Shown here: positions 6,791 to 60,443 of the stretch, in pieces
Numbering within the stretch: position 1 is the stretch's first letter
How the letters are laid out: every line of letters starts with the position of its first letter
Notes under the pieces: generated by a model
Seen by the model: only the letters and a program-made list of their open reading frames with translations
Database searches by the model: none
What the model was told of the DNA's origin: nothing
Position numbers and translations under genes: made by a program
Assembly (NCBI RefSeq): GCF_003977665.1
Contig: NZ_RYYV01000017.1
Coordinates: forward strand, 1-64,000
Direction of reading: 5' to 3'
Source of the DNA: Dyella choica
GTDB lineage: Bacteria; Pseudomonadota; Gammaproteobacteria; Xanthomonadales; Rhodanobacteraceae
DNA length: 64,000 nucleotides

Positions 6791-7885
6791 ATGAAAACGC
6801 TACTATGGCTGACCTGCTGCCTTGGAGCCGTAGCCATGTCCACCAGCGTGCGTGCCGACGAAAAGCCGATCGCCGCCAAGGTGCTGGTAATCGGCCATCG
6901 GGGCGCCAGCGCGTTGCGGCCCGAGCATACCCTGGCCTCGTATGGCCAGGCCATTGCCGATGGCGCGGACTACGTGGAACCCGACCTGGTGATGACCAAG
7001 GACGGCGTGCCGGTGGCCCGGCACGAGAATGAGATCAGCGGCACTACCGACGTAGCCGGCCATCCGGAGTTCGCCTCGCGCAAAACGACCAAGACGATCG
7101 ACGGGCACCGTGTCACCGGCTGGTTCACCGAAGATTTTACCCTGGCTGAACTGAAGACCCTGCGTGCGCGCGAACGACTGCCGGAGTATCGCAGCACGCA
7201 ATACGACGGCGATTTCCAGGTACCGAGTTTCGATGAGATCATCGACTTCGTCGCAACCGAAGCGGCCACGCGTGGGCGCGTCATCGGCATCATTCCGGAG
7301 ATCAAACACAGCACCTATTTCCAGAAGCTGGACCTGCCGATGGAAGATCGCGTGCTGGCGATCATTGCCGCGCATCACTACACGCAGCGTGCGCCGGTGG
7401 AAATCCAGTCGTTCGAAATCGCCAATCTGCGCTATTTGCGCGGCAAACTGGGCAAGAGCCACCCGAACGTACGCCTGCTGCAGTTGATCGATGATGCGCA
7501 TGAGCAGCCGTACGACGTGACGGCAGCGGGTGGCAAGCTGAGCTATGGCGACATGACCACGCCGGCGGGCTTGCGCGAGATCGCCACCTATGCGGATGCG
7601 ATCGGCCCCAACATCCGCGCGATCATTCCCTTGCAGGCCGACGGCCGCCTGGGCGCGCCCACACCGCTGGTGCATGATGCGCATGCGGCCGGCCTGGAGC
7701 TGCATCCGTATACGTTTCGTCCGGAAAACCACTTCCAGGCGAAGAATTTCTGGCAGGGCAGCGATCCGAAGACCTTCAACGAGGCCGGTTCGATCGCGGA
7801 GATCCGCACCTATCTTGGCGCGGGGATCGACGCCTTCTTTACCGACGACCCGGCCATCGGGCGCAAGGCGGTCGATGGGCGCTAA
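6791..7885 (+). CDS. glpQ: Periplasmic glycerophosphodiester phosphodiesterase
   Basis: Hydrolyses glycerophosphodiesters to glycerol 3-phosphate and an alcohol in the periplasm. The 364-residue protein has a signal peptide (about 1-22, ending SVRA) and the GDPD signature: HRGAS at 36-40 (His36, Arg37 bind phosphate), Glu45 in RPEHTLASY, and EPDLVMTKDGVPVARHE supplying the metal-binding Glu/Asp and second catalytic His. The start is the ATG after AGCGGAGC; a GTG at 6776 overlapping the receptor stop is an alternative. It is coupled to the TonB-dependent receptor, so the two probably form one phosphorus- or carbon-scavenging operon. Confidence 0.92.
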   Translation: MKTLLWLTCCLGAVAMSTSVRADEKPIAAKVLVIGHRGASALRPEHTLASYGQAIADGADYVEPDLVMTKDGVPVARHENEISGTTDVAGHPEFASRKTTKTIDGHRVTGWFTEDFTLAELKTLRARERLPEYRSTQYDGDFQVPSFDEIIDFVATEAATRGRVIGIIPEIKHSTYFQKLDLPMEDRVLAIIAAHHYTQRAPVEIQSFEIANLRYLRGKLGKSHPNVRLLQLIDDAHEQPYDVTAAGGKLSYGDMTTPAGLREIATYADAIGPNIRAIIPLQADGRLGAPTPLVHDAHAAGLELHPYTFRPENHFQAKNFWQGSDPKTFNEAGSIAEIRTYLGAGIDAFFTDDPAIGRKAVDGR

Positions 7886-7888
7886 CTA

Positions 7889-7922
7889 GCTCCCTCCCCT
7901 ACGTGTAGTAGGGGAGGGAGCC
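7889..7922. repeat. C-rich palindrome (family C)
   Basis: GCTCCCTCCCCTACGTG followed by TAGTAGGGGAGGGAGC forms a 14- to 15-bp stem immediately after the glycerophosphodiesterase stop. It probably acts as a transcription or mRNA-end structure. It is the cleanest copy of the family also seen at 56617-56653. Confidence 0.75.
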
Positions 7923-7945
7923 GCTTGTTTTGAGTAGCTCGGATG

Positions 7946-7974
7946 TTGAGGGCTCGCGTTAAAGCCTGTAGCAT
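7946..7974 (+). promoter_or_regulatory. Sigma-70-type promoter for riboswitch transcript
   Basis: TTGAGG (7946-7951) and TAGCAT (7969-7974) are separated by 17 bp, the optimal spacing for a housekeeping sigma factor. Transcription would start near 7981, about ten bases ahead of the first conserved riboswitch block. This is a prediction from spacing and match only. Confidence 0.6.
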
Positions 7975-7990
7975 CCGCGCCACTCACTGT

Positions 7991-8140
7991 CATTGGGGAG
8001 TAGCCATCCTCCTGCGGCGGCCGCCAGGCGCGCATGCATCGAGGAATCCGCGTCAACATACTTGAAGCCTAGGCTTCATGGCGCGGGTGGTTGTCGCAGG
8101 CATTCGGTTTGCGGCAGTCCGGCGAGACCTTTGGCCACGA
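7991..8140 (+). ncRNA. yybP-ykoY manganese riboswitch
   Basis: Three blocks diagnostic of the yybP-ykoY class are in order: GGGGAGTAGCC at 7995-8005, GCGTCAACATACT at about 8050-8062, and GTCCGGCGAGACCTTTGGC at 8117-8135. In characterised members these form the Mn2+-binding junction between two stacked helical legs. The closing P1 helix is not perfect in primary sequence here. Downstream, CCGGCCGGGCGAGCG (8151-8165) pairs with CGCTCGCCCGGCCCGG (8189-8204) to give a strong hairpin ending seven bases before the ATG and covering its weak ribosome-binding site. With no T tract, translational control seems more likely than termination. It precedes a cation exchanger, a plausible Mn2+ exporter. Confidence 0.88.
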
Positions 8141-8211
8141 CGCGCTTACCCCGGCCGGGCGAGCGGCGTACGTGCGCCATTGGTTTGCGCTCGCCCGGCC
8201 CGGAATTCACC

Positions 8212-9213
8212 ATGCTCATCACGGCGTTGCTGTTCCTGCTTTCCGCGGCAGCGATCTACGCAGCCTGCGAGTACTTCGTCAACAGCATCGAATGGCTGGG
8301 GCACAAGCTCAAGCTCGGCGAGACCGCCACGGGTACGGTGCTGGCGGCATTCGGCACGGCTTTGCCGGAAAGCGCGGTGACGTTCGTGGCGGTAATGATG
8401 GGGCGCACGGCCGAGGTACGCGACATCGGTGTCGGCGCGGCGATGGGCGGTCCCCTCGTATTGGCCACGATTGCCTACGCGGTGGTGGGCATTGCGCTGT
8501 GGAGCTGTCGTCGACGCTTGGGGCGCGCCACGATGCACGTGCAGGTGAAAAGTGCGCGGCTGGCGCGCGACCAGGGGTGGTTCCTGTCGATCTTCATCGT
8601 GAAATGCGCGCTCGGCTTGGCGGCCTTCGCCTTCAAGCCGTGGCTTGGTGTCCTGTTTCTATTGGCCTACGCGCTTTACGTGTGGCGTGAATTGAAGGAT
8701 GAGGGCGATGCAGCCGACCACGAGGAGCTCGAGCCACTGAAATTTCAGCCGCGTGCGTCGACGCCGTCGATGCTGGCTGTGTCGTTGCAGGCGACGCTTT
8801 CATTGCTGGTGATTGCGATGGCCTCGCACTTCTTCGTTTTGCAGCTGCAAGGCATCGGACTGGCCCTGCATCTTGCGCCGCACCTGGTGGCGCTGGTGCT
8901 CAGTCCGGTGGCTACGGAACTGCCCGAAACCATGAATGCGCTGATCTGGGTGCGCCAGGGCAAGGAACGGCTTGCGCTGGCGAACATCTCCGGTGCCATG
9001 ATGATTCAGGCCACCGTGCCCAGCGCTCTCGCGATCTTCGCCACACCCTGGCTGTTCGATGCGCCGCTGGTGGTGTCGGGCGTGCTGACCATGCTGGCGA
9101 TCGTCTATTTGTGGGGATTGTTCAAGCGCGGCCGGGTCGATGGCCGTGCCTTGGTGCCGGCTGGTTTGCTCTACTTGGTGTTTGCGTTTTACGTCGCGCA
9201 CAGTCTCATGTGA
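8212..9213 (+). CDS. CaCA-family cation exchanger under Mn2+ riboswitch
   Basis: A 333-residue inner-membrane protein of the Ca2+:cation antiporter superfamily. It shows the two inverted alpha repeats: AAFGTALPESAVT near residues 45-57 in the first half and LSPVATELPETMNAL in the second, each with the metal-binding Pro-Glu pair. About ten hydrophobic segments are present, with a charged cytoplasmic loop (ELKDEGDAADHEELEPLKF) in the middle. The start is the ATG after the riboswitch hairpin; the open frame runs back to 7993 through the riboswitch and is not coding there. Most relatives are called sodium/calcium or calcium/proton exchangers. Control by a Mn2+-sensing element suggests manganese export. 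Confidence 0.9.
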   Translation: MLITALLFLLSAAAIYAACEYFVNSIEWLGHKLKLGETATGTVLAAFGTALPESAVTFVAVMMGRTAEVRDIGVGAAMGGPLVLATIAYAVVGIALWSCRRRLGRATMHVQVKSARLARDQGWFLSIFIVKCALGLAAFAFKPWLGVLFLLAYALYVWRELKDEGDAADHEELEPLKFQPRASTPSMLAVSLQATLSLLVIAMASHFFVLQLQGIGLALHLAPHLVALVLSPVATELPETMNALIWVRQGKERLALANISGAMMIQATVPSALAIFATPWLFDAPLVVSGVLTMLAIVYLWGLFKRGRVDGRALVPAGLLYLVFAFYVAHSLM

Positions 9214-9222
9214 GGCCTGGGC

Positions 9223-9975
9223 TCAGGACTCGCCCAGGCGCGATAGCTCAAGCTTGGCCGCCTTGAGCCACTCCTGCTCCTTGCGACGATAGTAGCGGGG
9301 CATCAGCTGGGCGCGCCGAAGCTGGCTCTGCAGCACGTTGCGCGCTTCGTCGCGGTGCTGGCTGCGGCCTAGCAGGCGGCCGTAGCGAAAGCGCCCTTCT
9401 TCTCCCGGATAACTGTCGGCCAGCACGCGGTACTCCGCCAGCGCGGCTTCGGTTTCGCCTAGTTCTTCCAGGCAGCGCGCATACAGCAATTGGCCATCGC
9501 TCGATTTGTAGTTGGGATTGGCCTTGGCCAGGGCGTCCAGCGTCTGGCGCGCATCGGCAAATTGATCGCTGCCGGCCTGCGCCCGGGCCAGCCCCAGCAT
9601 GAAGTCCGGATCGGTGGCGTACATGCCGCCGAGCAGGCCCTGATACAGTTCCTGCGCGTTGACGTAATCGCCTTGCTGCAGGCATTCCTCGGCGAGGCGG
9701 CGGCGATTGTCCACCGTATTGCTGATTTCAAGCTGCCGTTGCAGCTCGCGCCGGCGGCGCTGCGGATCGATCATCTTCATCGCGGTCCGGGCCGCCGTAC
9801 GCCCGCGCGGATCATGGCGCAGATCGGGAATGACCGCGATCACCACATAGACCAGTACGGCGAGATAAGACCCGATCAGGATCAGCCAGATCCAATACAG
9901 CGGGCGGCCACTGCGGATCACGTGCACGGCGCAGGCGATCTGCAGGCCCAAGGACAACAGGAACACGAACGACAT
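9223..9975 (-). CDS. TPR protein with N-terminal membrane anchor
   Basis: A 250-residue protein. Residues 1-55 contain two hydrophobic segments (MSFVFLLSLGLQIACAVHVI and WIWLILIGSYLAVLVYVVIAV) resembling the PLDc_N-type membrane module. Residues about 95-230 are helical tetratricopeptide repeats (EECLQQGDYVNAQELYQGLL; ARCLEELGETEAALAEYRVL). It is likely an inner-membrane scaffold with cytoplasmic TPRs. It is the last gene of the leftward cluster that begins at 13718, 83 bp after a small membrane-protein gene, but an operon link is not proven. Converges with the cation exchanger gene. Confidence 0.8.
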   Translation of the reverse strand: MSFVFLLSLGLQIACAVHVIRSGRPLYWIWLILIGSYLAVLVYVVIAVIPDLRHDPRGRTAARTAMKMIDPQRRRRELQRQLEISNTVDNRRRLAEECLQQGDYVNAQELYQGLLGGMYATDPDFMLGLARAQAGSDQFADARQTLDALAKANPNYKSSDGQLLYARCLEELGETEAALAEYRVLADSYPGEEGRFRYGRLLGRSQHRDEARNVLQSQLRRAQLMPRYYRRKEQEWLKAAKLELSRLGES

Positions 9976-10058
9976 GGTTTCCCTCGAAGCAATTCCTACG
10001 CACGATATTACGCCACGGGCTTGATGCGGGCGCCGATTTGCATCGCAAGCGCCTCATT

Positions 10059-10382
10059 TCATCGGAAGTTCTCGCCAATGCCGGACACGAGCCCAAAGCA
10101 GGCTGCGACCAGCAGCAGTATGACGGCCGAAGCTGAGGCCACTCCCATCAGCAGGCCTTTGCCGGTGCGTGGGGCGTCGCCGGAAAGCATGCGGATGCCG
10201 ATCACCACGATCACGACCGGAAGCAGCAGTCCCAAGGGAAGGCCGCCGATCGGGACGAGCACGATCTCGCCCAGGATCATGCTCACCCAGGCGAGGACGA
10301 TGCCTGCCCCCAGCGATCCATCGTCGCCGGGCGGCTTCGGTTCGGGCGAAGATTCATAGGCACCGGGCGGAATATCGATCAT
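10059..10382 (-). CDS. Small membrane protein, paralogue B
   Basis: A 107-residue protein with a Pro/Gly-rich polar N terminus (about 25 residues) and three hydrophobic stretches (GAGIVLAWVSMILGEIVLV; LGLLLPVVIVVIGI; VASASAVILLLVAACFG). It is clearly paralogous to the gene at 10401: both share the order AWxxMILG, then LLLPV, then RTGKGLL, then LLLVAACFG. I know no named family. It is separated from its paralogue by 18 bp. Possible roles include a membrane accessory subunit for the radical SAM/Lgt-like cluster; this is inference from position. Confidence 0.78.
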   Translation of the reverse strand: MIDIPPGAYESSPEPKPPGDDGSLGAGIVLAWVSMILGEIVLVPIGGLPLGLLLPVVIVVIGIRMLSGDAPRTGKGLLMGVASASAVILLLVAACFGLVSGIGENFR

Positions 10383-10400
10383 GGCGGGTTTTTCCAGCGG

Positions 10401-10724
10401 CTACTCGCCGATGCCGCCTCGCAGCATGCCAAAGCACGCGGCGACCAGCAGCAGCGCGACGGCAAAGATCGAGGCCAACCCCAGCAGCAGACCCTTGCCG
10501 GTGCGCTGCTTGTTGCCGGCGAGCATGACGATGCCGGCGACGAGGATGCCAACCGGAAGCAGCAACAATAAGGGGAAAACCCTGGTGGAAATGAGCAAGA
10601 TCCCGCCCAGGATCATGATCAACCACGCGAGGCCGATGCCGCCCGCCACCGAACCGCTGTCGCCTTGCGGCTCCGGGTCGGATAGCGGCGACTGAGGCGG
10701 CTCATACGGTTGGGTACCGCTCAT
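10401..10724 (-). CDS. Small membrane protein, paralogue A
   Basis: A 107-residue protein of the same design as its neighbour at 10059: polar, Pro-rich head (MSGTQPYEPPQSPLSDPEP), then three hydrophobic segments with the conserved RTGKGLLLGLAS linker and LLLVAACFG. Its ATG overlaps the TGA stop of the radical SAM gene (ATGA), so translation is probably coupled and the products are likely wanted in step. No family is recognised. The tandem pair looks like a local duplication that has diverged to roughly half identity by eye. Confidence 0.82.
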   Translation of the reverse strand: MSGTQPYEPPQSPLSDPEPQGDSGSVAGGIGLAWLIMILGGILLISTRVFPLLLLLPVGILVAGIVMLAGNKQRTGKGLLLGLASIFAVALLLVAACFGMLRGGIGE

Positions 10725-12157
10725 GACGCACCTTTCTCGACGGCACGGGCTTGTTCGATTTCACGCCGCAGCGCGGCGAGCTTTTCCGCCTTGTCGTCGC
10801 GGTAGAACAGATTGAAGGTGTCGAACGGAATGATGCGGCCATCCGGCTGTGCGATGTGCACACAGGATTTTTTCACCGCGCGCAGGTCGAAGCCGTGTGC
10901 GTCGATGAATTGCATGATCAGCACGCGGAACACGTTGCGATAGGAGAGTTCGGCCGGCGCCTGCACTTGCGGTAGGCAGCACAGCAGGTCCGACAGCGAA
11001 CAGGCCTGCGATTCGGGCGAATGGTTGGTGGCGAACAGCTCGAACACGTGTGCGCGCAACTGTTCATCGCGTTCGACCACGATGGTGTTGCGTCCCTTGC
11101 TGACCAGGGTTTCAGGCGAGACGAAGCGTGTCAGCGGCAGCACCTGGCCGCCCAGCTTCAAGGCATAGGCCATCGCCAGGCAATCGGGATTGCAGGGCAC
11201 GGGGATCAGGTCGTCGGGGCGGAAGATCGTACTTTGCTCGAGGATGCGGCGGCGCACTTCGCTCAAGGTGAGGCGATCGCGTTCGGCGTCATAGCCCTCC
11301 AGGCGGCCGGCCGCCTGGATCGGCTGAAAGGTGACGCCACGCACGCAAGGCTGGGTGAGGGCGAACTCGATGATCGAGCCCAGCTCATCGTCGTTGAGGC
11401 CTTTCTTGACGGTGACCACCAGGGTGGTGGAGATGTCGTGGCGGTTGAGGTGCTCCAGCGCCTGTAGGCGGATGTCGCGCAGTTTCGCGCCGCGCAGGTC
11501 CTTGTGCACTTCATCGCGCAGCGAATCGAATTGCAGGTAAAGCTCGAAGCCGGGCTGGTAATCGGCCAGCCTGGCCGCGAAGTCCGCTTCGCGGGCGATG
11601 CGCAAGCCATTGGTGTTGACCATCAGGTGCCGGATCGGCCGTTGCCTGGCGGCATCGAGGATGGCGAAGAAATCCGGATGCAGGGTGGGCTCGCCGCCCG
11701 AAATCTGCACCACATCGGGTTCGCCTTCGTTGGCGACCACGGCATCGAGCATGCGCTCGACCGTGGCCAGGTCGCGGTAACCCGGCCGGTGCGGGCCGCT
11801 TTCCGCGTAGCAGATCGGGCAGCGCAAGTTGCAGTGATCGGTGATTTCCACCAGGGTCAGGCACGAGTGCTGCATGTGTTCCGGACACAGCCCGCAGTCG
11901 TAGGGGCAGCCGAAATGCTGCGCCGTGTTGAACTGTTGCGGCAGTTCCGGCGGTTTGATGTAGACCTCGCGGCATTGGCGGTAGTACGCCGCGTCGTCCG
12001 CGATCAGCACGCGTTCGCGGCCATGATGCGGGCACCATTTTTCGAGATAGACGCGCTCGTCCTTGATCAGGATTTTTGCCTCGATGCGGCGCAGGCAGGT
12101 GCTGCAGATCGATACGGCGCTGTCGTAGAACAGGTACGGCCTTACCTTGGCTCCCAT
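10721..12157 (-). CDS. Radical SAM enzyme of the Tes (tetraether synthase) type
   Basis: A 478-residue radical SAM protein whose cysteine layout matches the COG1964 group that includes archaeal tetraether lipid synthase Tes (MJ0619). A rubredoxin-like head has Cys18, Cys21 and Cys42-HH. GCPYDCGLCPEH gives Cys84, Cys88 and Cys91 for an auxiliary cluster. The SAM-cleaving motif is CNLRCPIC (Cys109, 113, 116), followed by ISGGEPTLHP for SAM binding. A C-terminal region (CNPDC; QACSLSDLLCC; KKSCVHI) could hold a third cluster. Tes joins lipid tails through C-C bonds; bacterial relatives are largely untested. I start at MGAKVRPYLF because residues upstream are encoded by a repeat element. Upstream is an Lgt-like gene; downstream is a coupled membrane protein. 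Confidence 0.88.
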   Translation of the reverse strand: MGAKVRPYLFYDSAVSICSTCLRRIEAKILIKDERVYLEKWCPHHGRERVLIADDAAYYRQCREVYIKPPELPQQFNTAQHFGCPYDCGLCPEHMQHSCLTLVEITDHCNLRCPICYAESGPHRPGYRDLATVERMLDAVVANEGEPDVVQISGGEPTLHPDFFAILDAARQRPIRHLMVNTNGLRIAREADFAARLADYQPGFELYLQFDSLRDEVHKDLRGAKLRDIRLQALEHLNRHDISTTLVVTVKKGLNDDELGSIIEFALTQPCVRGVTFQPIQAAGRLEGYDAERDRLTLSEVRRRILEQSTIFRPDDLIPVPCNPDCLAMAYALKLGGQVLPLTRFVSPETLVSKGRNTIVVERDEQLRAHVFELFATNHSPESQACSLSDLLCCLPQVQAPAELSYRNVFRVLIMQFIDAHGFDLRAVKKSCVHIAQPDGRIIPFDTFNLFYRDDKAEKLAALRREIEQARAVEKGAS

Positions 12158-12174
12158 GCGCTGCGGTTCCCCGT

Positions 12175-12247
12175 GTAGGCTGGGATGCAAATCCCAGCAT
12201 TGCCATGCATGCACCACCGCGATGCTGGGATTGTCATCCCAGCCTAC
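12175..12247. repeat. GTAGG REP doublet (family A, copy 1)
   Basis: Two hairpins in inverted order: GTAGGCTGGGATGCAAATCC followed by CAGC on the left, and GCTGGGATTGTCATCCCAGC followed by CTAC on the right. The right half encodes the last residues and TGA stop of the Lgt-like gene (12234), and the left half ends 18 bp from the radical SAM start. The doublet therefore sits inside the putative operon and could uncouple its expression. Confidence 0.85.
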
Positions 12248-12980
12248 GTGCTGCGTTTCCCTTGGTCATCAGATACGCGATCCGTGGAATATCGCGATGG
12301 TAGTAGAGCAGCCCGGTGATGCAAAGCCATTGCAGGCCGGACAAATGCCCCGGGTAGGCAAAGAACAGCGGCTTGATGAACTTCACCAGCAGGCGGAAGC
12401 CCAGATAGCCGATCATGAAGGCGCGGAAGCGATCGCCCGGCGCGAAGTGATGGCGCCGCGCATGGATCCAGGCGTACTGCGCGAGCAGGTAGAGGATTTC
12501 GTAGATTTGCGTGGGATGGCGCGCGATGCCGTCGCCGAAATCCACACCCCAGGGCAACGAAGTGGCGTTGCCATAGGTGTGATCCTGCAATCCGGCCAGG
12601 TAGCAGCCGACACGGCCGATGCACATGCCCACGGTAAGCGGCAGTACGAACGCATCGCCGGTGGATTGCCGGATGCCGGCGACCTTCTTGCACAGTTCCA
12701 CGCCGAGCAGGCCGCCGAGCAGCGCGCCGATGATGGACTTGCCCTGCAGCAGGTTGCGCACGTCGGGGAAGTCTCGAAACGCGGTCAGCGGATCGTCCAG
12801 CCAGTAGCTGAGTTTGGCGCCCAGGGCGGCGCCGACGATGGCGCTCACGGCAATCCATGCCACTTCGTCCTTTTGCTTGAACGCGCCGGGCGCAAGGCGT
12901 TGGCGTGTCCATACAAAGGTGCGAAAGCCGACTGCATAGGCCAACGCCTCGCACAGGGTGTGAAGCGCGACGGGTGTCAT
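12234..12980 (-). CDS. Lgt-like integral membrane protein lacking the HGG motif
   Basis: A 248-residue polytopic protein of the prolipoprotein diacylglyceryl transferase superfamily. It keeps the GR signature (MCIGRVGCYLAG) and the C-terminal HPTQIYE motif corresponding to HPSQLYE of Lgt, plus TSLPWGVDFGDG. The segment where E. coli Lgt carries the essential His of SFHGG reads IIGALLGGLLG, so that His is missing. It is shorter than true Lgt (about 290) and is probably not the housekeeping enzyme but a transferase or lipid-binding relative. Between a 2OG oxygenase (39 bp upstream) and a Tes-like radical SAM enzyme, it probably handles the same lipid or lipid-linked substrate. Confidence 0.85.
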   Translation of the reverse strand: MTPVALHTLCEALAYAVGFRTFVWTRQRLAPGAFKQKDEVAWIAVSAIVGAALGAKLSYWLDDPLTAFRDFPDVRNLLQGKSIIGALLGGLLGVELCKKVAGIRQSTGDAFVLPLTVGMCIGRVGCYLAGLQDHTYGNATSLPWGVDFGDGIARHPTQIYEILYLLAQYAWIHARRHHFAPGDRFRAFMIGYLGFRLLVKFIKPLFFAYPGHLSGLQWLCITGLLYYHRDIPRIAYLMTKGNAARRLG

Positions 12981-13019
12981 GGGCGAAAGCCGGACGAGAG
13001 CATCGGACAGCTGCAGACC

Positions 13020-13718
13020 TCAGTCGGGGTGCGCAGCATTGCGATCGCGCCCGGCGCCCAGCTTGCGATCGAGCACGCCGAACAATTTCTTGAACGCACG
13101 GGAGAATTTGCCGCGCTTGGTCTTGCGCAGTTTTTCTTCCTCGCTGGTCAGCCAGGCCACCTGGATCACGCGGCGCTCGCCTTCGTAGGGAAGGTGGCCG
13201 TGAAAGGAATTGTCGCAGCGCTTGAACACGGCGAATTCGCCATACAGCGGCTTGAGTTCGGGGGCGACCAGGTCGTCGATGCTGTCGATGCGATGGAGGA
13301 AACGCAGGCAACCGTCGCTAGTGTCCGGCCACCGCGTATTGAGGTAGAGCAGGGCGGTGGCGACCTTGGACCGGCTGTCGGTGTGGATGGTGCCATGGCG
13401 CTTGTTCAAGGCCCGACAAAGGGTGACCAGAGTGGGGTAATGGCCCAGGTTGTCGATGCCCAGATGGCGGCCGATCGTGCTGGCGAACTGAGGCGTGGTC
13501 AGTTGCTGCACCAGCGCGTTGACCGAGGGGCCGCAGTCGGCCGGATCATAGGGAAAGAAGCCGGCACTGGTGTACTTGGGGAAGTCCCTCTCCAGGTCGC
13601 CGCGCGCTTCATCCGGCAGCTGGCCGTGAGCAATCAGGAACGGAAACGGGTGCTGGCGCACATCCGTATCCGGGCGATCGAGCCGGGCAGGGTCCAGCAG
13701 TAGGGCGGTCGCATTCAT
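13020..13718 (-). CDS. 2OG-Fe(II) dioxygenase family protein
   Basis: A 232-residue protein of the prolyl-4-hydroxylase/PiuC-like 2-oxoglutarate-Fe(II) oxygenase fold. The Fe-binding facial triad is visible as HTD in KRHGTIHTDSRSK and the distal His in NSFHGHLPYEGERRVIQ, with the following Arg able to bind 2-oxoglutarate. The C-terminal tail is rich in Lys/Arg. No signal peptide is seen, so it is cytoplasmic. First gene of the leftward cluster; 39 bp separate it from the Lgt-like gene. The substrate is unknown, but the company it keeps suggests a lipid, a sugar head group or a membrane protein. Confidence 0.87.
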   Translation of the reverse strand: MNATALLLDPARLDRPDTDVRQHPFPFLIAHGQLPDEARGDLERDFPKYTSAGFFPYDPADCGPSVNALVQQLTTPQFASTIGRHLGIDNLGHYPTLVTLCRALNKRHGTIHTDSRSKVATALLYLNTRWPDTSDGCLRFLHRIDSIDDLVAPELKPLYGEFAVFKRCDNSFHGHLPYEGERRVIQVAWLTSEEEKLRKTKRGKFSRAFKKLFGVLDRKLGAGRDRNAAHPD

Positions 13719-18820: not shown

Positions 18821-18904
18821 GTAGGCTGGGATGGAAATCCCAGGGATGGAAATTCCAGCAGTCGGGACGCCGCGTGGAAAGCTGGGATTTTCATCCCAGC
18901 CTAC
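18821..18904. repeat. GTAGG REP doublet (family A, copy 2)
   Basis: GTAGGCTGGGATGGAAATCC starts the left hairpin and CTGGGATTTTCATCCCAGC followed by CTAC closes the right. The left arm has an extra partial duplication (GGGATGGAAATTCC), making it about 10 bp longer than other copies. It separates intact greA from the greA-like relic. Confidence 0.85.
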
Positions 18905-27589: not shown

Positions 27590-27663
27590 GTAGGCTGGGT
27601 TGTCAAACCCAGCATTGCCATGCGTGCAACCTGCGCGATGCTGGGTTTGACAACCCAGCCTAC
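27590..27663. repeat. GTAGG REP doublet (family A, copy 3)
   Basis: GTAGGCTGGGTTGTCAAACC plus CAGC and GCTGGGTTTGACAACCCAGC plus CTAC. Both hairpins carry GGGTT with AACCC, whereas copy 1 carries GGGAT with ATCCC, so both sides of each stem have changed together. It lies in the 256-bp gap between ihfB and lapA. Confidence 0.88.
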
Positions 27664-57743: not shown

Positions 57744-58218
57744 GTGTACGCAGGCTGGGATGGCAATCCCGGCTCCCTGGCGACGCCGGATGCTGGGGTG
57801 GCCATCCCAGCCTACGCATTAGCCATCCATCGTCCAGATCATCATCGCCACGCACGATGGCGATGCCGTTCGTCGCGGAATGGCCGATCGTGACGCCGCT
57901 GGGCTGGCTGACGTAGCCGTCACCATCCACGTTGAAGATAGAAACGTGCGACGCGGTTTGGACGCGGTGACGATGACATCATCGTCTTGCCATCGAAAAT
58001 CGGCTTAGGCGTGGGGAGCACTCGCCACCCTCAGCGCAAGCAGCACTGAACTTCAGACGGCCTTTTTCATGCCTGTGCCTCGATGGGTGTATAAGGAACG
58101 ATGGCGGCATGGGGGTGTGCCGGCTATGGCAGGCATGTCGCCGGACTTATTGTTATTCTGTAACAGTCGCTCGATCCTCACTGTCTCCGGCGCATTGCGC
58201 CCTTGCGGGGAACCAGCC
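57744..58218. other. 475-bp gap with REP doublet and possible relic
   Basis: A family A doublet lies at 57750-57815 (CAGGCTGGGATGGCAATCCC and GGGGTGGCCATCCCAGCCTAC). Beyond it, leftward frames at 57820-57960 read NVDGDGYVSQPSGVTIGHSA followed by TNGIAIVRGDDDLDDG, which looks protein-like but has no start codon, and its end runs into the repeat. It may be the 3' stub of a lost gene. The last 150 bp presumably contain the S46 peptidase promoter. Confidence 0.45.
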
Positions 58219-60316: not shown

Positions 60317-60443
60317 CACTAGGGGAGGGCTAGGTGGAGTGGAGCAACCTCGCGACAATGTCCGAGGTTCGTAGGCTGGGTTGCAAAACCCAGCATTGCG
60401 ATGCGTGCAACACACGCAAAGCTGGATTGTCATCCCAGCCTAC
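60317..60443. repeat. C-rich arm plus GTAGG REP doublet (family A)
   Basis: An AGGGGAGGG family C arm at 60320 is followed by a full family A doublet at 60371-60443: GTAGGCTGGGTTGCAAAACC and GCTGGATTGTCATCCCAGCC plus TAC. The two hairpins differ from each other (GGGTT/AACCC on the left, GGATT/ATCCC on the right), suggesting a chimera of two subtypes. Confidence 0.85.

Follow-up and report, generated by a model that had tools for sequence, protein, structure and literature searches.

We analyzed a 64,000-nucleotide stretch of Dyella choica DNA (hereafter the window; contig NZ_RYYV01000017.1, positions 1 to 64,000, from a 5.49-Mb genome designated G000) and focused on a set of leftward genes for an Lgt-like membrane protein, a Tes-like radical S-adenosylmethionine (rSAM) protein, and small membrane proteins with a cysteine at a membrane helix (Cys-helix proteins). 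An Lgt-like protein, a Tes-like rSAM protein, and one to four small Cys-helix proteins form a unit that is found in several phyla. As for the chemistry, we infer that this gene set probably makes an undescribed lipid or lipid-tagged membrane molecule. The members of the module in the window are as follows (aa, amino acids).

12234..12980, minus strand: Lgt-like integral membrane protein, 248 aa
10721..12157, minus strand: Tes-like rSAM protein, 478 aa from ATG 12157
10401..10724, minus strand: small membrane protein 1, 107 aa, with Cys97 close to where the last membrane helix ends (LLVAACFGM)
10059..10382, minus strand: small membrane protein 2, 107 aa, a tandem paralogue of protein 1 (LLVAACFGL)

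The two 107-aa proteins are 60% identical to each other; their genes are separated by 18 bp, and the rSAM gene and the first of them overlap at ATGA. A preliminary description of this DNA had listed five or six leftward genes with these two spacings and a third of 39 bp, which lies between a 2-oxoglutarate (2OG)-Fe(II) oxygenase-like gene and the Lgt-like gene; six open reading frames (ORFs) and all of these spacings were recovered in place. The longest ORF of the rSAM gene (10721-12217) opens at GTG 12217. Because this codon sits within a repeated inverted element and the homologues align from 12157, ATG 12157 is most likely the true start.

To begin with the relatives, the genome set comprised 100 genomes including our own, 60 of which belong to the family of the window. 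An rSAM match at E ≤ 1e-40 was present in 16 of the 100 genomes, and the Lgt-like gene (E ≤ 1e-10) was present in 15, all of them among the 16 rSAM holders; in the holder without it (G082), the rSAM gene is a fragment located where a contig begins. Within the family, both genes were present in 9/60 genomes, and small protein 1 was matched in 8 of the 37 genomes searched, which are exactly the cassette holders among those. The single match of small protein 1 in a non-holder, from another family, was weak (4.4e-4). Because the Lgt-like and rSAM genes covary in occurrence across relatives, and the small protein does so as well within the family, their association is not due to chance. The preliminary description had proposed a search for a conserved neighborhood, and a Tes-type rSAM protein, a divergent Lgt, and small membrane proteins indeed co-occurred across relatives.

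When GTDB species genomes were scanned with an alignment of ten sequences as the query, 495 candidates were obtained, and the best 80 of these (52–88% identical) were characterized. They came from Proteobacteria, Acidobacteria groups, Bacteroidota, Planctomycetota, Bacillota (Brevibacillus and Cohnella), Myxococcota, Elusimicrobia, one cyanobacterial metagenome-assembled genome (MAG), and two archaeal MAGs, with the binning as deposited. An Lgt-like gene was found at 70 of these 80 rSAM loci, in one case (L081) as a contig-edge piece. It was located upstream on the same strand at 66 of the 70 loci, within 60 bp at 46 of these, downstream at three, and on the opposite strand at one. Among the ten loci without an Lgt-like gene, six contigs end within 500 bp, and L079, L097, L113, and L115 have longer flanks. 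In the class and phylum samples, rSAM matches were rare (11/369 genomes at E ≤ 1e-25 and 12/398 at E ≤ 1e-100, own genome counted), as they were among plasmids (8/72,556 records at E ≤ 1e-40). Four of these plasmids were examined; besides an Lgt-like gene, that of Persicobacter has a small ORF with the Cys, whereas that of Nonomuraea has the Lgt-like gene without such an ORF, and those of Mycolicibacterium and Halorarius carry neither. Viral carriage was rejected, as only distant rSAM proteins (best 3e-15) were among the matches listed in the viral scan.

A second, distant type of pair was observed in three order-level genomes (L044 4494-8505, L046 ~7688-13195, and L047 ~7326-11312). It consists of a 26–28% identical rSAM protein, an Lgt-like protein, and a ferritin-like-looking gene (a sub-threshold Pfam match for L044, by inspection for the others). 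A fatty-acid hydroxylase gene (PF04116) was found near this pair in both loci scanned, L044 and L046, which also carry short Cys-helix proteins. Furthermore, LplT/acyltransferase-type genes clustered near the pair in 8 of the best 80 loci, a count that comes from a noisy neighbor clustering used as a lead; gene calls by longest ORF and by GC3 were likewise noisy and used as leads. The genes are of a fusion type in L054 (5099-6979, by Pfam) and look similar in L052, L055, L059, L073, L074, L077, and L085. Because fatty-acid hydroxylase and LplT/acyltransferase-type genes adjoin the distant relatives or the pairs, these neighbors support a lipid role.

Small hydrophobic proteins of ~56–136 aa recur beside the pair, often in tandem. 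In a first pass, at least one two-helix ORF was seen at 62 of the best 80 loci, some of these ORFs being parts of other genes. The small proteins were scored by a rule (45–160 aa, a membrane helix, and a Cys after 14 hydrophobic residues, the last 12 uncharged, within 800-bp flanks). The rule was positive at 64/70 Lgt-bearing loci compared with 5/136 control genes of the same loci, although the windows around the pairs, covering two genes each, are longer than the control windows. It was positive at 0/4 Lgt-less loci with longer flanks and at 2/6 contig-edge loci. Because the rule had been devised after the discovery loci were viewed, it was applied unchanged to other loci, and 15 of 17 Lgt-bearing loci were positive (the misses being L150 and L180). 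Duplicates (L172, identical to L127, and L181, identical to L115) were excluded from this set, and the wider-order loci L031-L047 were kept apart. At least 6 of these 17 loci are closely related to discovery loci (the Bradyrhizobium-like L171, L173, L175, and L176, the Collimonas-like L170, and L145, the partner of L076), and 9/11 were positive after these were removed. Among the wider-order loci, the search for small ORFs found nothing at L038 and the contig fragment L045, and a relaxed look at L038 also gave none; the ORFs of L047 (132 aa) and L148 (158 aa) were unlike the group and were not counted.

When the Cys requirement was dropped, a Cys was present in 77/86 adjacent small two-helix ORFs, compared with 3/13 distant ones. 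The last charge before the Cys helix was K/R in 77/91 proteins, and the Cys followed at a median of 20 residues; such an arrangement would place the Cys on the periplasmic side. It lay within 15 residues of the C-terminus in 50/91, and a C-terminal FH or MH was seen in 12/85. The pair in the window matched no Pfam, NCBIfam, PHROGs, or PADLOC family above the cut-off, with weak sub-threshold Pfam matches only, and PHROGs gave no match for the four proteins submitted. A defense role was rejected, as the defense scan gave only generic viperin and 2OG matches. The tandem, variable character and common Cys of the small proteins resemble precursors of ribosomally synthesized and post-translationally modified peptides, and their modification by the rSAM protein is putative.

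Because the small proteins vary in sequence and length, are often in tandem, and have little in common beyond the Cys helix, we read them as substrates. The preliminary description had taken them for paired subunits; that they belong to the neighborhood held up, but a Cys helix that is often tandem in several phyla points to a substrate. The reading that we tentatively prefer is a module devoted to modifying a lipid or lipopeptide: the Cys proteins would be acceptors for the Lgt-like protein, and the rSAM protein would act on acyl tails. In the first step, the Lgt-like protein would take phosphatidylglycerol (PG) as the donor and move diacylglyceryl to the small-protein Cys, a donor role suggested by the retention of the catalytic Arg/Tyr/Glu set. 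The acceptor Cys would be on the periplasmic side, as is the lipoprotein Cys, although its context is not a lipobox. In the second step, the rSAM protein would abstract a hydrogen from an acyl tail in a Tes-like hydrophobic tunnel, and its C-terminal cluster would help to form a C–C (or C–S) bond. The two steps would yield a lipid or lipopeptide with modified tails that possibly spans the membrane. A more specific version seems unlikely: a lipopeptide in which the His-less Lgt paralogue would lipidate the helix-end Cys and the rSAM protein would stitch its tails to another lipid, giving a bilayer-spanning anchor in many bacterial phyla and perhaps some archaea.

The fold of the rSAM protein points to tail chemistry. 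The closest solved relative by sequence was GDGT-MAS (7tol, E 3.5e-64). An AlphaFold model built with 10 sequences (pLDDT 72.6, pTM 0.78) placed 7tom at rank 1 (E 3.4e-32, TM 0.76/0.73), whereas the next rSAM folds had a TMq of 0.35–0.39. The three-cluster Cys layout named in the preliminary description was present, with an N-terminal site of C104/C108/C111 and H114/H117, the RS site of C129/C133/C136, and a C-terminal set of C342/C413/C414/C452; a rubredoxin-like CX2CX20CX2H (C38, C41, C62, and H65) was absent from its list. The residues of the RS, N-terminal, and rubredoxin-like sites were each kept in 78–81 of 81 rows. The Cys-Cys at 413-414 (78/81 each) is not matched in the stretch of Tes aligned with it, and the C-terminal cluster of this family may thus be held differently from that of Tes; a C–S bond to the Tes cluster was inferred by the Tes authors in the excerpted text of PMC9433317.

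In the curated models, the best score of the rSAM protein was with NCBIfam TrsS (NF045646; 334 bits against a cut-off of 490, nearly full length). With the Tes equivalog, it scored 273.6 bits against a cut-off of 450, and five Lgt-paired homologues scored 262–298 bits. Nine further proteins (six of this rSAM family, two of G336, and one of type II) were under both the Tes and the TrsS cut-offs. The idea of lipid modification put forward at the outset therefore stood in part: the rSAM protein has the fold of an enzyme that couples lipid tails, but a membrane-spanning lipid as the product is not established because the protein scores under the curated Tes cut-off.

The same evidence bears on another possible, if somewhat doubtful, explanation, namely membrane-spanning phospholipid synthesis, in which the rSAM protein would couple the tail ends of ordinary phospholipids, in the way that Tes acts on archaeol, the Lgt-like protein would handle or present PG, and the small proteins would be subunits. 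GDGT-MAS as the best structural match, the conserved equivalents of the rubredoxin, N-terminal, and RS sites of Tes, and the Cys set in the C-terminal part are all consistent with it. So are two published proposals, each taken from an excerpted source: that bacterial Tes homologues make branched tetraethers (PMC8941075) and that Mss couples tails after head-group addition, with PG lipids (PMC13274423). On the other hand, phospholipid coupling leaves the small-protein Cys and the tandem copies unexplained, and the scores under the Tes cut-off also argue against it. Many holders, among them Bradyrhizobium, Hymenobacter, and Collimonas, are mesophiles for which, to our knowledge, no such lipids have been described, a further point against phospholipid coupling.

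The Lgt-like protein had the LGT domain and fold, and it scored under the cut-offs of all six matching NCBIfam Lgt models; a separate canonical Lgt is encoded elsewhere in the genome. As noticed earlier, GR and HPTQIYE were kept and the His of the HGG motif was gone. Among the Escherichia coli Lgt residues, Arg143 and Arg239 (R123 and R196), Tyr235 (Y192), and Glu202 (E161) were retained; R123 was found in 70/71 rows, with one gap, and R196 in 71/71. The equivalents of His103 and Asn146 were Ile84 and Cys126, respectively.

The loss of the His103 and Asn146 equivalents is what would be expected if the Lgt-like protein were a non-catalytic lipid-binding anchor, with the small Cys proteins as scaffold or redox subunits and the rSAM protein acting on another hydrophobic substrate (a quinone, terpenoid, or peptide). 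The wider rSAM family is in keeping with this possibility. In a tree built with FastTree (a single method, with a midpoint root and without Tes or TrsS references), L113, L115, and L151 formed one nested Lgt-less branch with the contig-edge L108 inside it, and L079 and L097 were scattered. In two genomes of this branch, DUF547 and methyltransferase-like genes come after the rSAM gene (L113 7965-11201 and L115 7974-11142, with Pfam on L113), and neither an Lgt nor small Cys proteins were found at these two loci. More distant Tes-like proteins likewise lie beside methyltransferase genes, with no Lgt, on plasmids of Mycolicibacterium vanbaalenii (L265 4971-7339) and a haloarchaeon (L266 3974-6137). 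Because the Lgt-less branch and the distant Tes-like proteins adjoin other genes, the rSAM fold serves several contexts. Nevertheless, the nearly invariant Arg pair and Tyr go beyond the needs of an anchor, and one to four copies per locus would be unusual for a fixed subunit, so we consider the anchor-and-subunit explanation improbable. In a separate observation, G336 (L148 7595-11686) carries two adjoining Tes-like rSAM genes (33% and 29% identity to the query) with no Lgt on the stretch.

Several results weigh against the modification module with Cys acceptors. His103 (HGGL) is essential in E. coli Lgt, where a role in binding the lipobox peptide has been proposed for it. Position 84 of the homologues is Val/Leu/Glu/Ile/Met and His in 0/70, and because this essential residue is absent in all 70, the transferase activity of the Lgt-like protein may be lost. 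Its model gave no significant Foldseek match, and 5azb came first only in a second look with VIA-align. The classical lipobox pattern is [LVI][ASTVI][GAS]C, which fitted 3/85 Cys sites, and the residue at −1 was G/A/S in 26/85. The predicted periplasmic position of the Cys is at odds with the cytosolic chemistry of the rSAM protein. Two Tes residues also differ across the rSAM family, as the equivalent of Met439 is Met435 in the window protein but Met in only 38/81 rows, and the equivalent of Tyr459 is Ile455, with Tyr in 0/81 and mostly Ile/Phe. In the excerpted text of PMC9433317, both residues are completely conserved in 1,000 archaeal Tes homologues, and the M439A and Y459F/L variants of Tes were active in vitro. 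No small Cys protein was detected at 6/70 and 2/17 loci, and small protein 1 gave no match at E ≤ 1e-3 in the holders or partial holders outside the family (G062, G073, G074, and G082). The small proteins of different phyla were grouped by place, size, topology, and Cys and not by shared descent; the longer pair windows, the post hoc rule, and the close kin described above count on the same side.

Three further features of the locus were not assigned to the module.

12175..12247, no strand assigned: REP-like inverted repeat (arms of 29 nt) that separates the Lgt-like gene from the rSAM gene, not counted as a functional part
13020..13718, minus strand: 2OG-Fe(II) oxygenase-like gene, a family core gene outside the module (context only)
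9223..9975, minus strand: tetratricopeptide repeat (TPR) membrane protein outside the module (context only)

Leftward from carAB, the gene order is 2OG, Lgt-like, rSAM, the two 107-aa membrane proteins, and TPR, with a convergent Na/Ca exchanger-like gene beyond the TPR gene. On the basis of the common strand and the 39-bp gap, the six genes from 2OG to TPR could be taken as a lipid operon in which the 2OG oxygenase would supply a hydroxylation step. This explanation is very improbable, and the 2OG distribution refutes such an operon as a conserved unit: the 2OG gene, which the preliminary description had counted as a member, was present in 59/60 family genomes compared with 9 for the cassette, it lay beside carA in all five cassette-free family loci examined, and the distant holders G062, G073, G074, G090, G094, and G096 gave no 2OG match at E ≤ 1e-5. 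The TPR gene was also rejected as a member, being present in 1/5 cassette-free loci and shifting in position.

The exchanger gene was near in 4/5 cassette-free loci, either immediately adjacent or separated by the TPR gene alone, and was not found in the fifth (L144). In the eight family relatives fetched (L031-L037 and L041), the cassette lay on the non-carA side of the 2OG gene, with the exchanger beyond it wherever the exchanger was located. The fourfold-site divergence of the rSAM gene was 0.22–0.40 (seven relatives), compared with 0.17–0.45 for carA/carB. Recent transfer within the family is not favored, as the nine family holders share the site beside the 2OG gene and rSAM divergence is similar to that of carA/carB; we infer an old insertion with repeated loss. 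In G030, the rSAM gene is in two pieces (L041 7282-8734), possibly because of a frameshift or a misassembly.

With regard to the repeat, a 13-base piece of its arm occurred 19 times in the window (≤2 mismatches), compared with 1.6 expected in shuffles. REP-like doublets with GTAGGCTGGGATG arms were located at 12175-12247, 18821-18904, 27590-27663, 57750-57815, and 60371-60443. A promoter and terminator scan gave no excess over shuffles.

Taken together, a large, mostly bacterial Tes-like branch is accompanied by an Lgt-like gene and by small membrane proteins with a Cys. Because its tested members fall under the Tes cut-off and the branch keeps this company, its members should not be read as tetraether genes without a test. 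This matters for branched tetraethers, which are palaeoclimate proxies with bacterial Tes homologues as possible makers (PMC8941075 and PMC11868695, both in excerpt). If the small proteins are lipidated, they would represent a new protein-lipid modification across several phyla. No description of the trio of rSAM, Lgt-like, and small Cys proteins was among the matches listed in the open-access literature.

Compared with known systems, the module combines familiar and distinct parts. Classical lipoproteins carry a lipobox, which the Cys context of the small proteins is not, and Lgt (5azb) has the His103 and Asn146 whose equivalents the module protein has lost; the module protein also falls short of the NCBIfam Lgt cut-offs. 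TrsS gave the rSAM protein its best NCBIfam score, yet one short of the cut-off. Mss, compared here by description only, is also a bacterial lipid-tail coupler and was reported with a Tes architecture (PMC13274423, in excerpt). Tes/GDGT-MAS (MJ0619; 7tol/7tom) shares with the rSAM protein the domain order, the rubredoxin-like, N-terminal, and RS sites, and the C-terminal domain, whereas the identity in the fold alignment is 28%, the rSAM protein is under the Tes cut-off, and Tes has a Cys in an aligned stretch where the rSAM family has Asp/Glu. The Lgt-like partner and the small Cys proteins are features of the module that set it apart from Tes.

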